From NCBI GenBank assembly GCA_027488755.1, contig JAIYAZ010000013.1, forward strand, positions 1 through 40,865: 40,865 nt of DNA. The letters are read 5' to 3'. Below are positions 31,747-37,290 of this stretch, piece by piece; positions within the stretch are counted from its first letter, which is position 1, and every line of letters begins with the position of its first letter. The DNA comes from Verrucomicrobiaceae bacterium. GTDB taxonomy: Bacteria > Verrucomicrobiota > Verrucomicrobiia > Chthoniobacterales > JAATET01. The translations under genes and the position numbers were made by a program. The notes below the pieces were generated by a model, which did not search any database, was not told the DNA's origin, and saw only the letters and a program-made list of their open reading frames with translations.

Positions 31747-32454
31747 TCAGCGGATGGAGGCCGGCGCTCCCAGGGTGCTTCGATTCTCGCCCGGCTTGAG
31801 CCTTCGGCGCGCGACCCCCAAGAGCAGGAGCAGCCCAGAGAGGATCGGCCCGAAAGCGCCGGACTCGGGCACCACGACAAAGTTGGCGGTAAAGGCCGAC
31901 TCGGGGATGGCCGGCTCGCCACCCAGGGCGGCGTCGAGGGAAAAGAGACTGTGGTTCGTGCCGTCGCCGGGCGCGATCCAAGCCATGGTCCCAAGGGCGT
32001 CGATGCTATCGGTGCGGAACTTACCGTAGGCGGCCCCGGCAGAAACAGATGCACCGGGCGTGTCGCTCGCGGGAAACCACACCAGCCAGAGAGGGACTCC
32101 GGCATCGAAAGCGCCGCCGTAATCGAACGTTGTGGCGCTCAGATCGAGACCGAACTGCGATTCCCCAAGGTCCAGGGTCTGATAGACGCCTAGGATGAGA
32201 TCGTCGCTGTCGCCCCCGAGGGAGGACTCTACCACCAGGGTGGTGCCAAGGGGGTCGGTGAGACCGTCCCCCGAAACGTCGGCGACGAGCAGACCAACGC
32301 GCCCGGCCGGCAGCATGGCCCCAATTTCGTCGCGCAGGATGCCGACGGCACCGGAAGTGATGGTCACGCTACCCCAAGCCAGCGGCGCGGTGGCCAGCCA
32401 ACCGGCGAGAAGCGCGGCGGCCAGACGGTTCGGGGGAAGGTCGCGCCGGCTCAT
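31747..32454 (-). CDS. Secreted PEP-CTERM-like protein, 235 aa
   Basis: The protein has a signal peptide ([20 protein letters not shown]), a beta-rich body with many Gly/Asp/Ala/Leu residues ([40 protein letters not shown]) and a C-terminal signal: [20 protein letters not shown] then [11 protein letters not shown]. The PES replaces PEP, a variant that exosortase substrates can show. It starts at ATG 32454, overlapping the SGNH/TIGR02597 gene stop in ATGA. In Verrucomicrobiota, TIGR02597-type genes often have such a small exported partner; that is from memory. It is likely anchored or released at the cell surface with the polymer. Function unknown. Confidence 0.78.
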
Positions 32455-35400
32455 TGGGCGGAATCCTGGTTCCAAATGGACGAGGCCCCGCTGGCGGTGC
32501 GGAACTTGCGCACAATCATACCCGCCGCCGGCGGGAACGTCTCGCCGCCGGCGTTGAGCGCATCCGCCCCGGCGCGGCGCCACGTCCCGGCAGTGCGGTA
32601 ATAGACCCGGGCGGCGGACTTATTGTAGCCCGACTTCGAGTTGTCGAACACGAAGAGCTGGTCTCGCCGGTGGAGCGGAGACGTGCTTGGACTCGCCACA
32701 AAGGCACTCTCAAGCCCGAGCTGATCAAGTCGCAGCGACAAGGCGCGCGGAAGGGCCACCCAGTTATCCTGCGCGGATGTGGGGGTGGTGGTAAGGGGGG
32801 TGGTAAAGCGCCCGCCCCAGACCGATCCAACCTGGCTCCAAAGACGATCCCCGACGCCAAGGGGCTGACGGATAATGATCGGCTGCTCCGGGTAGATGGG
32901 CTCGTTATCGACGATCTGATTCGTGGCGGCGGCATACCAGTGCGAAGCCGTGAAGTAAAACGCCCGCGAGGCAGCGAGGTTAATGCCCGCAGCCATCGGC
33001 GGAACCATAAGCAGCTGACTTTTTCGCGCGAGGGGCGAGGTCGATGCCGAAGCCACCAGCGGGTTAACCGCCGTGCCCGACTGACCGGTCGGGAAAAGCG
33101 TCGCAAGCGTCCAGTATCGCCCGATCTCCACCAGATCGCCTGGGGCAACCGGGGAAAGGTTATCCCCATGGGAATCGATGGTGACGCTCCCCGACGTGTT
33201 GGCCACGATCTCGTAGTCCATGCCCCGTTTTGCTCCACTTAGAAGGCGAACGTAACCTCCCGCGGCCAGCGCGTTCACCGCAAAGCCGGCGTCGGTCGCG
33301 AGGTCAAAACGGCATTGGGAGGTTCCCACCGTCGTCGCTCCAGCAATGCTTGCCTTTACCGCGCCGGGCCGGCCGAGGGGCACGCTGACGATGGAGTCCG
33401 AACCCGCCTTAACGGGAATGCCAGAAACCCCAACCACGGACACGTCAAATCCAGCAAGCTGCTGAAGCTCCCACGCTAATCTCGCGGCGTAGTATGCATG
33501 CCCGGCGGTCGAGGGATGGGTGCCATCGCTGGGAGCGGAAAAACTCACCGAAGGGGCACTCACGTAACCAACCCCAGGAGCAGACACGGTCGCGCCGATT
33601 ACGACGTATCCAAACCCTGCCACCCCCGCGGCTCCACACCCACCGCCCCCGACAAGACTCACCCGGGGCTCGCACGTGTAGCCTGCGCCCTGATTCGTAA
33701 CGGTAATCCCCGTGAGTGAGCCCTCCGAGACACTCGCCACCGCAGTCGCTCCGGAGCCGGTCGTATCGCCGGGGGCGTTGACGATTTCCACGGTGGGCGC
33801 GCTGGCATAGCCCCGCCCACCCGCCAGGGGCGTGACCGAAAACACGCGCCCATCCACGAGGGCAGTCGCCGTCGCCCCGGTTCCGCCCCCGCCCGTGAAG
33901 GTCACTGCGGGGACGCGGTCGTAGCCCGATCCCCCGTTGGTGACGCTGAGGGATACGACCGAACCTCCGCTGACCTGCGCCTTGCCCGCGGCGGCGATTG
34001 TGGGGTGATAGGATTGTTTGTTTGCCGCGGTGATCCAGAAGTTGCCGGGTTCGGTCGGATCGATGAACGGCAATCCCCGCGCCTCCGCCGCGGCCTTGAT
34101 GCCCGCGCGGACCTCACCGAGGCCCGGAACCGCCGACGCATTGGGCCACCAAGGCCCAACCACGACGATCCGGGTATTCGGCAGAGCGGAAAGAATCTCG
34201 TCGTAAAGCAGGCCGGCCTCAGAATATAACGCCGCCTCGCCGTAGCCGCCGTCGTTGGTGCCGCCCGCGATGATCACGAGATCGGGATTTTGCCTGATGA
34301 TGTCGGTCTGCACACGGTCGCGAAGCTTCTTTCGCCCATTCGGGCCGGGGTTGAGATAGCCGGTGCCTCCGCTGCCGCTCATCCAGGTATCCCAGCCAAA
34401 TTTCTGCCGCAGCGAGAGGGCAAAGCCCCGCCAGGTGCCAAGCGCGCCGGTCCCCTCGGTGTAGGAGTCGCCGACGATGATCACCCGGGGCGGACGATTG
34501 GCCGCCGAGTAGCCCGGTGCCGCCCCGCCGCCGCCAACGGGGAAGCGCAGGGCCGAGAGGCGCACGAGGTAACTTTCCACGCGAATCCGTCGGGAGGCCG
34601 CATGGGGGAACGTGAGCCGGACGAAGCGCGGGAAACTCCCCGGTGTGCCCTCGACCGGCAGGCCGTTCGGCGAGGTCACCAGTTGGCCATCGACCCAGAT
34701 GCGCAGATACGGTGAGCCACCTTCCCGTTTGAAAACCATTTCCAAATCGGCGGCACCGGTCTGGAACTCGAACGCCCCGGGCATGACCGAGTTGGTCGAG
34801 TCGAGTCCCGTCGGCGCGAGGCAAAGGTCATTCGGATATCCGCTGCCGACCACCCAGACCGCGCTCTCAAGGTTGACGAAATCCGCGGGCGTGCCAGTGT
34901 AAAGAGAGGCTTGGGTCGCGTTCGCAAACGCGCTGGAGCCGGACTGGGCGATCACGGGTTTGCCGCTCGCCTCGGGTTGCCAGCTTTCGGCCGTCAGACC
35001 CGGAGTGCGCGGGGTGAACAGTCGCGCACAGTTCTCCCCAGTGAGCGTTCCCCCGCGACTCACCCGCAGTCGAAAAAAACGACTTGCCCCCGCAGCGGGC
35101 GCGGCGTTGTCCACGGCGGTGACATTGACCGGGGCGGACCCGACTTCAATGACCGACACTGCGGGCGATGTGGCGAGTGCCGCCCCCCCCCACGAACTGG
35201 CCTCGGTGCACCACGTCTTTAAATCGGAAGAACTCTGAAGGTGGTAGGCCACACCGGCGCGGTCGGAAAATCGGGGAAATTCGACGCGCAAGGATCTGCC
35301 GGAGAGGGAGGGTAACAACGAATTCGTGGAAGCGGCGGAAAGCGGATCGCCGCCCACGGCATACTCGAAAAAATTGGGCAACCCGTCCCAGTCGGGGTCG

Positions 35401-35567
35401 GCGTCGTTGGCGGCGACCCCGGAATTTGCGGACGCCCCGAAATGGGCGCTTCGCCACGCCTCGACGGCCGGTTCGGCCCCTAAGTCTGCACTCAAAGCAC
35501 CGAGACCGACCAGCAGTGCACGCGCAAGCCAACCACAACGGATCCCCACCCGCGAAGCGCAGCTCAT
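32451..35567 (-). CDS. Secreted SGNH hydrolase with inserted repeats and TIGR02597-like C terminus, 1038 aa
   Basis: The signal peptide ([20 protein letters not shown]) leads to [20 protein letters not shown], a Ca-binding-type repeat common in planctomycetal and verrucomicrobial proteins, and a beta domain. The SGNH catalytic domain follows: VGDSYTEG with Ser at residue 368, GGTND with Asn at 438, and [10 protein letters not shown] with Asp 681 and His 684. The Asn-to-Asp spacing of 243 residues is far longer than usual, because four G-x-GY-x3-P-x-V repeats are inserted. Residues from about 715 to the end match the TIGR02597 layout: [32 protein letters not shown] and twice S-x-STSPL-x-R. The start ATG 35567 fits the signal peptide; GTG 35594 is an alternative. 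Likely activity: sugar ester or acyl hydrolysis, such as deacetylation. Confidence 0.85.
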
Positions 35568-35614: not shown

Positions 35615-36955
35615 TCATCGCGGAAGAGGAAATGCCCCAGAAAAATAGTTGAAATTGGAACTGTCGTCCGCGTCGCTAATGGCGCGCTCACCTGAGTGCT
35701 TCAAGATGGTTTTGCCGTCGCGCAAGAGCCGGAAGCAGGGCACCCCGGGAGAGAAAAAGGGAGCACGCAGATGATGGACTCCGGCGGGGAGGTCCCAGGC
35801 TGCAGATTGTCTACCGAGCAGCATCTCAAAACGACCGGGCGAAGTCAAAAACACTGTTGCAAAGATCCCTTCCAGCAGATTCCCAACCCCCGAAGGAAAG
35901 GCCCGTCCCTCCGGGAACGCGTGCCCCAACGTCCGGGGATGCAGGCGGTAGAAGTAGCAGATGCGGTCATCGTCAATCGCGGGCGGCTTCCCTTTCTTGA
36001 ACCAATCGATGTAGTAGCGGGAGGCAGCCAGATACCCATCGTGGGGAATCACCTTCTGCGGGTAAGCCGGTTCGGCGGCGGGGTCGCCGGTCATCGCCAC
36101 GTAGGGCATCACGTAGCTGGCTTCCTGCCAATCGTTCCAGGTGACGATTTCCACCCATGGGGCCCCGAGGGCGATGGCGCTTTCCCACTCGGAGGCCATT
36201 GCTTCGAAGCCGTTGGTCTCAAACAGTCGATAGTTCGGAGGGTGGGAACCCCGGTAATACGGCGTGACACTCGCCATGTAGAGCTTACGGTTCGCCAGCC
36301 AAGTGCGGCCGATCCGCTCATTGCTCGCGCGGATTTGGTCCACCGTGCCGGCCGCCCCAAAATAGAAAAAACCATCGGAGCCCTGCCAGCGCCGAAAGAC
36401 GGCATTGATCTCGTCGCCTCCCGGGTGCTCGCTGGCTGGGTCGGGAAAATGGTAGGGGACGAAGAAAACTCCGTCGCCAAACCGTTCGCGCACGAAGGCC
36501 AGGACATTCCGCTGATCCCCGCCATAGGTCGAGAGCACCGGCTTCCCATCGACCTTGAGTTGGTTCGGATGGTCGCGAAACGATTCCACCATGTCGGTGG
36601 TCTCGTCGAACGTAAGGCCGGTTGTGAAATCCGCCGAAAGAAAGAGTTTAAACCCGGTGCCGAGCCGCGCGGCCGCCTCATAGAGCATCCGCGCGCGCGC
36701 CTTGTAGTGCGGCTCGCGTTTGCTCCACCCGCCGCAATTGAGGGCAAATCCGTCCAGCCCATAGGCTTGGGCAATGCGAATCTCGCGCTCAAAATCGCCG
36801 ACCGTGACCGTCCCGCCCGCAAACGGGCAGCAGACCATGTAGTGCGCAAAAACCATCTTGCGCACGGGCTGGGCCAGGGCTTTTGGCCCCCATATCCCTA
36901 GGCTGGCGACAAGCAGGATGGCGGCATGCCCGACGAAATTCGACGGATTGCGCAC
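35615..36955 (-). CDS. Secreted GH71-like alpha-1,3-glucanase family protein, 446 aa
   Basis: After a signal peptide (AAILLVASLGIWGPKALAQP) the protein reads MVFAHYMVCCPFAGG, ERE-I-RIAQAYGLDGFALNCG and FKLFLSADFTTGL, the start of the TIM barrel in glycoside hydrolase family 71 (endo-alpha-1,3-glucanases or mutanases). Later segments include GKPVLSTYGGDQRN, APWVEIVTWNDWQEASYV and a C-terminal beta domain ending NYFSGAFPLPR. The GTG at 36955 is the only start that gives a signal peptide and avoids the upstream cupin gene, eight bases away. Its location in an exopolysaccharide locus suggests an alpha-linked glucan or a trimming function. The catalytic residues are not pinned down here. Confidence 0.82.
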   Translation of the reverse strand: MRNPSNFVGHAAILLVASLGIWGPKALAQPVRKMVFAHYMVCCPFAGGTVTVGDFEREIRIAQAYGLDGFALNCGGWSKREPHYKARARMLYEAAARLGTGFKLFLSADFTTGLTFDETTDMVESFRDHPNQLKVDGKPVLSTYGGDQRNVLAFVRERFGDGVFFVPYHFPDPASEHPGGDEINAVFRRWQGSDGFFYFGAAGTVDQIRASNERIGRTWLANRKLYMASVTPYYRGSHPPNYRLFETNGFEAMASEWESAIALGAPWVEIVTWNDWQEASYVMPYVAMTGDPAAEPAYPQKVIPHDGYLAASRYYIDWFKKGKPPAIDDDRICYFYRLHPRTLGHAFPEGRAFPSGVGNLLEGIFATVFLTSPGRFEMLLGRQSAAWDLPAGVHHLRAPFFSPGVPCFRLLRDGKTILKHSGERAISDADDSSNFNYFSGAFPLPR

Positions 36956-36963
36956 GGGACAGG

Positions 36964-37290
36964 TTACTCGCCGCGGAGATACTTGTCGTTGGTCGCGCCG
37001 GGGATTTTCACCACGGTGGTGCTGACGGGAGTGAGGGTCCTGAAGTCGGTCCCCTCGCCCGGCGGGATGACGATGATGTCTCCCTCGCCGTAGCGGACGC
37101 CGTTCATTTCGACCTCGCCACGCACGATCACGGTGAACTCGGTGGCGATCTTGTGGTAATGCCACTCTTCGCTAAAGCCGGCGGGGTATTCCTTGACGGC
37201 GATTTCGACGGCCTCGGTGGCGAGGAGCGTGGGCTGGAAATTACCGATGAACCAGCCCTTGGTCATCTCGGAGAGTTTGGCGACTTGCAT
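36964..37290 (-). CDS. Cupin-domain protein, 108 aa
   Basis: This is a single small cupin barrel. The first cupin motif contains EEWHYHKIATEF, with His44, His46 and Glu51 as likely metal ligands. The second, GEGDIIVIPPGEGTDF, lacks the usual histidine and has Thr/Asp there instead. Such proteins are often sugar isomerases, epimerases or lyases, or small-ligand binders. The gene sits six bases after the nucleotidyltransferase gene and just before the GH71 gene, in a run of sugar-activation genes, so a role in sugar-nucleotide modification is likely but not proven. The start is the ATG at 37288-37290. Confidence 0.85.
   Translation of the reverse strand: MQVAKLSEMTKGWFIGNFQPTLLATEAVEIAVKEYPAGFSEEWHYHKIATEFTVIVRGEVEMNGVRYGEGDIIVIPPGEGTDFRTLTPVSTTVVKIPGATNDKYLRGE

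Follow-up and report, generated by a model that had tools for sequence, protein, structure and literature searches.

The 40,865-nucleotide stretch of DNA analysed here (the window; contig JAIYAZ010000013.1 of a Verrucomicrobiaceae bacterium) carries on its minus strand a gene for a putative SGNH hydrolase in which the Asp and His of catalytic block V lie far beyond the rest of the domain, behind a series of GxGY-x3-PxV repeats. Do the two parts still form one enzyme and, if so, what is the repeat-bearing insert? We favour, with a probability of about 0.6, a secreted SGNH/GDSL serine esterase, most like the CE2-type carbohydrate O-deacetylases, with a mobile beta-repeat domain inserted before block V. 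The features of the locus are as follows:

32451..35567, minus strand: complete gene, one open frame from ATG, 1038 aa (ORF reading of the minus strand)
35043..35510, minus strand: N-terminal region, residues 20-175 (36-46% identity to sites of its own genome)
34518..34778, minus strand: jelly-roll-like beta region, residues 264-350, preceding the hydrolase (common to phage esterases and CE2)
34002..34493, minus strand: SGNH domain, first part, residues 359-522 (Pfam PF13472, aligned columns)
34002..34013, minus strand: SYHP, residues 519-522, a block V look-alike without the Asp (similarity to block V not significant)
33528..34001, minus strand: GxGY-x3-PxV repeat domain (the insert), residues 523-680, four repeats, predicted all-beta (alignment, model, repeat homologues)
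33444..33527, minus strand: block V and C-terminal helix completing the SGNH fold, residues 681-708 (alignment, model)
32466..33434, minus strand: TIGR02597 domain, residues 712-1034 (NCBIfam)
31747..32583, minus strand: next gene downstream, small protein with a PEP-CTERM-like tail recognised by eye (ORF reading)

The 1038-aa protein is predicted to be secreted, its hydrophobic N-terminus being judged by eye to be a signal peptide. A surface-protein N-terminus is followed by the jelly-roll-like segment, the SGNH hydrolase (residues 359-708) and the TIGR02597 domain, which was assigned with 186 bits (E=1e-54) against a curated cut-off of 50. Residues 16-173 of the N-terminal region have look-alikes at ~10 other sites of this genome, several within frames of more than 1000 residues.

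Lipase_GDSL_2 (Pfam PF13472) matched at residues 365-523 (E=6e-18). To place the catalytic blocks, the protein was aligned with nine hydrolase relatives; deep joint alignments of hydrolase and repeat rows were discarded because hydrolase rows were misaligned onto the repeats. Ser368 of block I (34464-34466), Gly400 of block II, Asn438 of the GGTND of block III (34254-34256), and Asp681 (33525-33527) and His684 (33516-33518) of block V all fall in invariant or nearly invariant columns, as expected of SGNH/GDSL hydrolases, which are marked by GDS in block I, Gly in block II, GxND in block III and DxxH in block V. The block V Asp and His are kept in every row of this alignment, where they are aligned to 681 and 684 and not to 519-521.

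The alignment also locates the insertion point. The over-long gap between Asn438 and Asp681 pointed out in the sequence-only reading is real: 243 residues, compared to 76-108 in the nine relatives. The excess length is confined to a single loop which, measured from the conserved Trp511 (WIT) to the block V Asp681, spans 170 residues against 9-23 in the relatives. As had been counted from the letters, GY-x3-P-x-V occurs exactly four times in the protein, always within the insert (at 548, 586, 629 and 667); shuffled sequences contained it at most twice (5000 shuffles of the whole protein) or once (5000 shuffles of the insert).

Two AlphaFold models were then compared with solved structures. The model computed with hydrolase rows only was weak overall (mean pLDDT 52), although complete SGNH chains could still be aligned to its hydrolase core across the insert. 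Once two repeat rows had been included in the alignment, the model of residues 320-712 reached a mean pLDDT of 76 and a pTM of 0.67. In this model the insert is all-beta, with ten strands and pLDDT blocks mostly of 76-91, and the block V helix follows it at 687-705; block V itself has a pLDDT of about 61, that is moderate confidence, and the predictor's input alignment already had block V after the insert. Compared with complete SGNH chains (Z ~16-21), the models show the alpha/beta/alpha fold with block V ahead of the C-terminal helix. Alignments bridge the insert from model residue 39 to 387: 7bxd gave a Z of 20.2 (185 residues, 2.7 A), the CE2 enzymes 2WAO, 2WAB and 2WAA 17.5-18.3, and Ape1 (4K3U) 16.2; SsfX3 was also among the matches.

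A model failing to assemble an SGNH triad from both sides of the insert would have argued against a split hydrolase. This outcome was absent, because solved SGNH structures align across the insert and over the Asp681/His684 segment too (Z up to 20). The alignment, the model and the structural alignments thus support the proposal that a repeat insert splits an SGNH hydrolase whose catalytic Asp and His come after it. These predictions have both sides of the insert joined in a single SGNH fold, Ser368, Gly400, Asn438 and Asp681/His684 each occupying a conserved block position; an SGNH esterase would then be able to accommodate a whole beta domain of ~150 residues in its loop before block V.

SGNH enzymes act on lipids, thioesters and non-carbohydrate esters as well as on carbohydrates, and acyltransferases exist among them. 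In a Foldseek search with a larger model, whose jelly-roll part has only low to moderate pLDDT, CE2 acetyl esterases ranked top. They (2WAO, 2WAA, 4XVH, 3U37) have a jelly-roll domain followed by an SGNH hydrolase, a layout that the window protein probably shares, but identity is only ~15-20% and, to judge from aligned lengths, they have no repeat insert ahead of block V. Many CE2 enzymes use a Ser-His dyad (PMC9487903). SGNH enzymes are known to carry accessory domains N-terminally (CE2), C-terminally (CE17) or within the SGNH domain itself, as in the Neisseria peptidoglycan O-acetylesterase Ape1 (PMC9487903; PMC6174289). The carbohydrate-binding-like domain of Ape1 (4K3U) lies within its SGNH domain at residues 104-221 (PMC9487903; PMC6174289); it is CBM35-like and occupies another site, whereas the insert described here directly precedes block V. 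An insert in this loop, of a different domain kind from that of Ape1, is an addition to the known SGNH architectures. Each piece is already known; the searches made here turned up no second case of the combination.

What is the inserted domain? It matched the phage virion families PHROG 701, 19630 and 460 over residues ~528-679 (E 7e-23, 3e-21 and 1e-19), a membership that covers the repeat only and not the virion protein: the PHROG proteins have the repeat in common with the insert but serve as structural or connector proteins of the virion and are no hydrolases. Further matches were found in an Opitutaceae autotransporter-like protein, in one actinomycete and one archaeal protein, in many viral contigs and in 26 of the 210 genomes of the order searched for the repeat. 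A tblastn search of phage records with the insert as sole query returned nothing, probably because the low-complexity filter masks it: relatives do turn up in profile and unfiltered searches. The insert matched no Pfam family. The repeats were suggested in the sequence-only reading to bind polysaccharide above the active site, and profile searches of the protein matched no carbohydrate-binding family. A literature search returned no paper naming TIGR02597 and none recognised as dealing with the GxGY repeat. Against solved structures the insert gave no match by sequence; by structure its fold was not identified among them because the listings were filled by SGNH chains, a result that says nothing in favour of a new fold. 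Against viral models, the long M4SQ89 and I3UL95, which have no listed name, came first (156-161 aligned columns, 37-39% identity), the aligned part being probably the repeat part; phage esterases ranked after them.

We also looked for the repeat in other secreted hydrolases, as the sequence-only reading had suggested. The repeat proved common in surface proteins, but an SGNH domain of this kind was absent from ~50 other repeat loci, most of them examined with ~1.5 kb on either side. The same genome encodes a second GxGY-repeat protein of 2193 aa with a similar type of N-terminal region (L091, 3178-10698; C55), directly followed by a weakly TIGR02597-like protein. For a repeat domain without a Pfam family, so far met chiefly in phage virions and large surface proteins, the window protein offers an enzymatic context in which its role could be tested.

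Such a distribution fits a possible, though tentative, alternative in which the insert has no catalytic role and serves as a structural spacer or display module that landed in a loop able to tolerate it. In phage virions and long surface proteins the same repeats would have a scaffolding role, and their many unrelated contexts, like the failure to match a carbohydrate-binding family, agree with this. However, the insert adjoins catalytic block V, where a bulky domain should affect access. In the esterase that we favour, the repeat domain may instead form a rigid wall or arm on the active-site rim, positioning a polymer or selecting its size. The fullest version of this idea is distinctly speculative: the GxGY domain, a scaffold module that phage virions and bacterial surface proteins have in common, would act as a lid over the active site or as a guide for the polymer, having become part of the catalytic loop of an esterase that TIGR02597 and a PEP-CTERM-type partner tether in the exopolysaccharide matrix.

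The relatives of the hydrolase bear on a second alternative, that of a captured phage tail or virion esterase. For region 180-545, the closest relative found was the tail protein of Bacillus phage Mater (YP_009151128.1; 36% identity, E 2e-33), bacterial collections having been searched less deeply than phage; others came from Streptomyces phage LibertyBell and from Gordonia, Bordetella and Erwinia phages. These esterases (Mater, Gordonia JKSyngboy gp23) have the jelly-roll and SGNH unit in common with the window protein at 32-36% identity, but their loop ahead of block V is short and their context is a tail or virion. General SGNH relatives are common across the phylum, and a search of 213 genomes of the order, among them three of the same genus, gave no close homologue. 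Capture of the jelly-roll and SGNH unit and of the repeats from a phage structural protein, followed by fusion to host surface domains, would account for these relatives and for Erwinia phage Joad, where a similar GxGY-like repeat lies N-terminal to the SGNH domain. We nevertheless consider it rather unlikely: no phage protein was found with an insert at this site, TIGR02597 and the N-terminal domains are host-type, base composition is even along the whole gene, and the depth of the searches favoured phage relatives.

In Joad gp137 (L038, 1560-1900) the repeat lies ahead of a unit of jelly-roll and SGNH domain. A Pfam match below threshold to tail sheath Gp18 domain I hints at a possible relationship between the GxGY repeat and a tail sheath domain.

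It is improbable that the enzyme is catalytically dead, or an acyltransferase instead of a hydrolase: the existence of SGNH acyltransferases and the structural match to SsfX3 point that way, but all catalytic block residues are present. Least probable of all is an origin of the insert by duplication of the surrounding block V segment. The two look-alike segments flanking the insert are indeed present as letters, but their similarity does not exceed chance: the best exact DNA match is 7 bases, and 666 of 930 other stretches of the gene do as well or better; the protein score was reached in 476 of 2000 shuffles. A duplication that carried the insert in, as had been proposed, is therefore unsupported and was rejected; moreover, its first copy, SYHP, has no Asp. 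SYHP does sit at the block V position of short-loop relatives such as that of Gordonia phage Clown, which leaves a slight chance that it is an ancient decayed copy.

The genomic setting concerns the substrate of the proposed esterase. Genes of the window encode a bacterial sugar transferase, a group 1 glycosyltransferase, WavE-type proteins, a flippase-type polysaccharide biosynthesis membrane protein and a nucleotidyl transferase. Within this polysaccharide locus, a GH71 family glycosidase gene (35615-37165, E 1e-63) lies immediately upstream on the same strand. The locus and the GH71 gene favour, without proving, a polysaccharide substrate, from which the putative esterase would remove O-acyl groups. 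The N-terminal and TIGR02597 domains would anchor the enzyme to the cell surface or within the exopolysaccharide matrix, perhaps helped by the downstream PEP-CTERM-like protein. The tail of this protein was undetected by NCBIfam and missed by a simple motif. Across TIGR02597 loci of the order, the same simple motif detected a PEP-CTERM-like neighbour in 22 of 31, compared to 5 of 62 control loci, which suggests that a TIGR02597 gene and a PEP-CTERM-like neighbour usually form a conserved surface gene pair.
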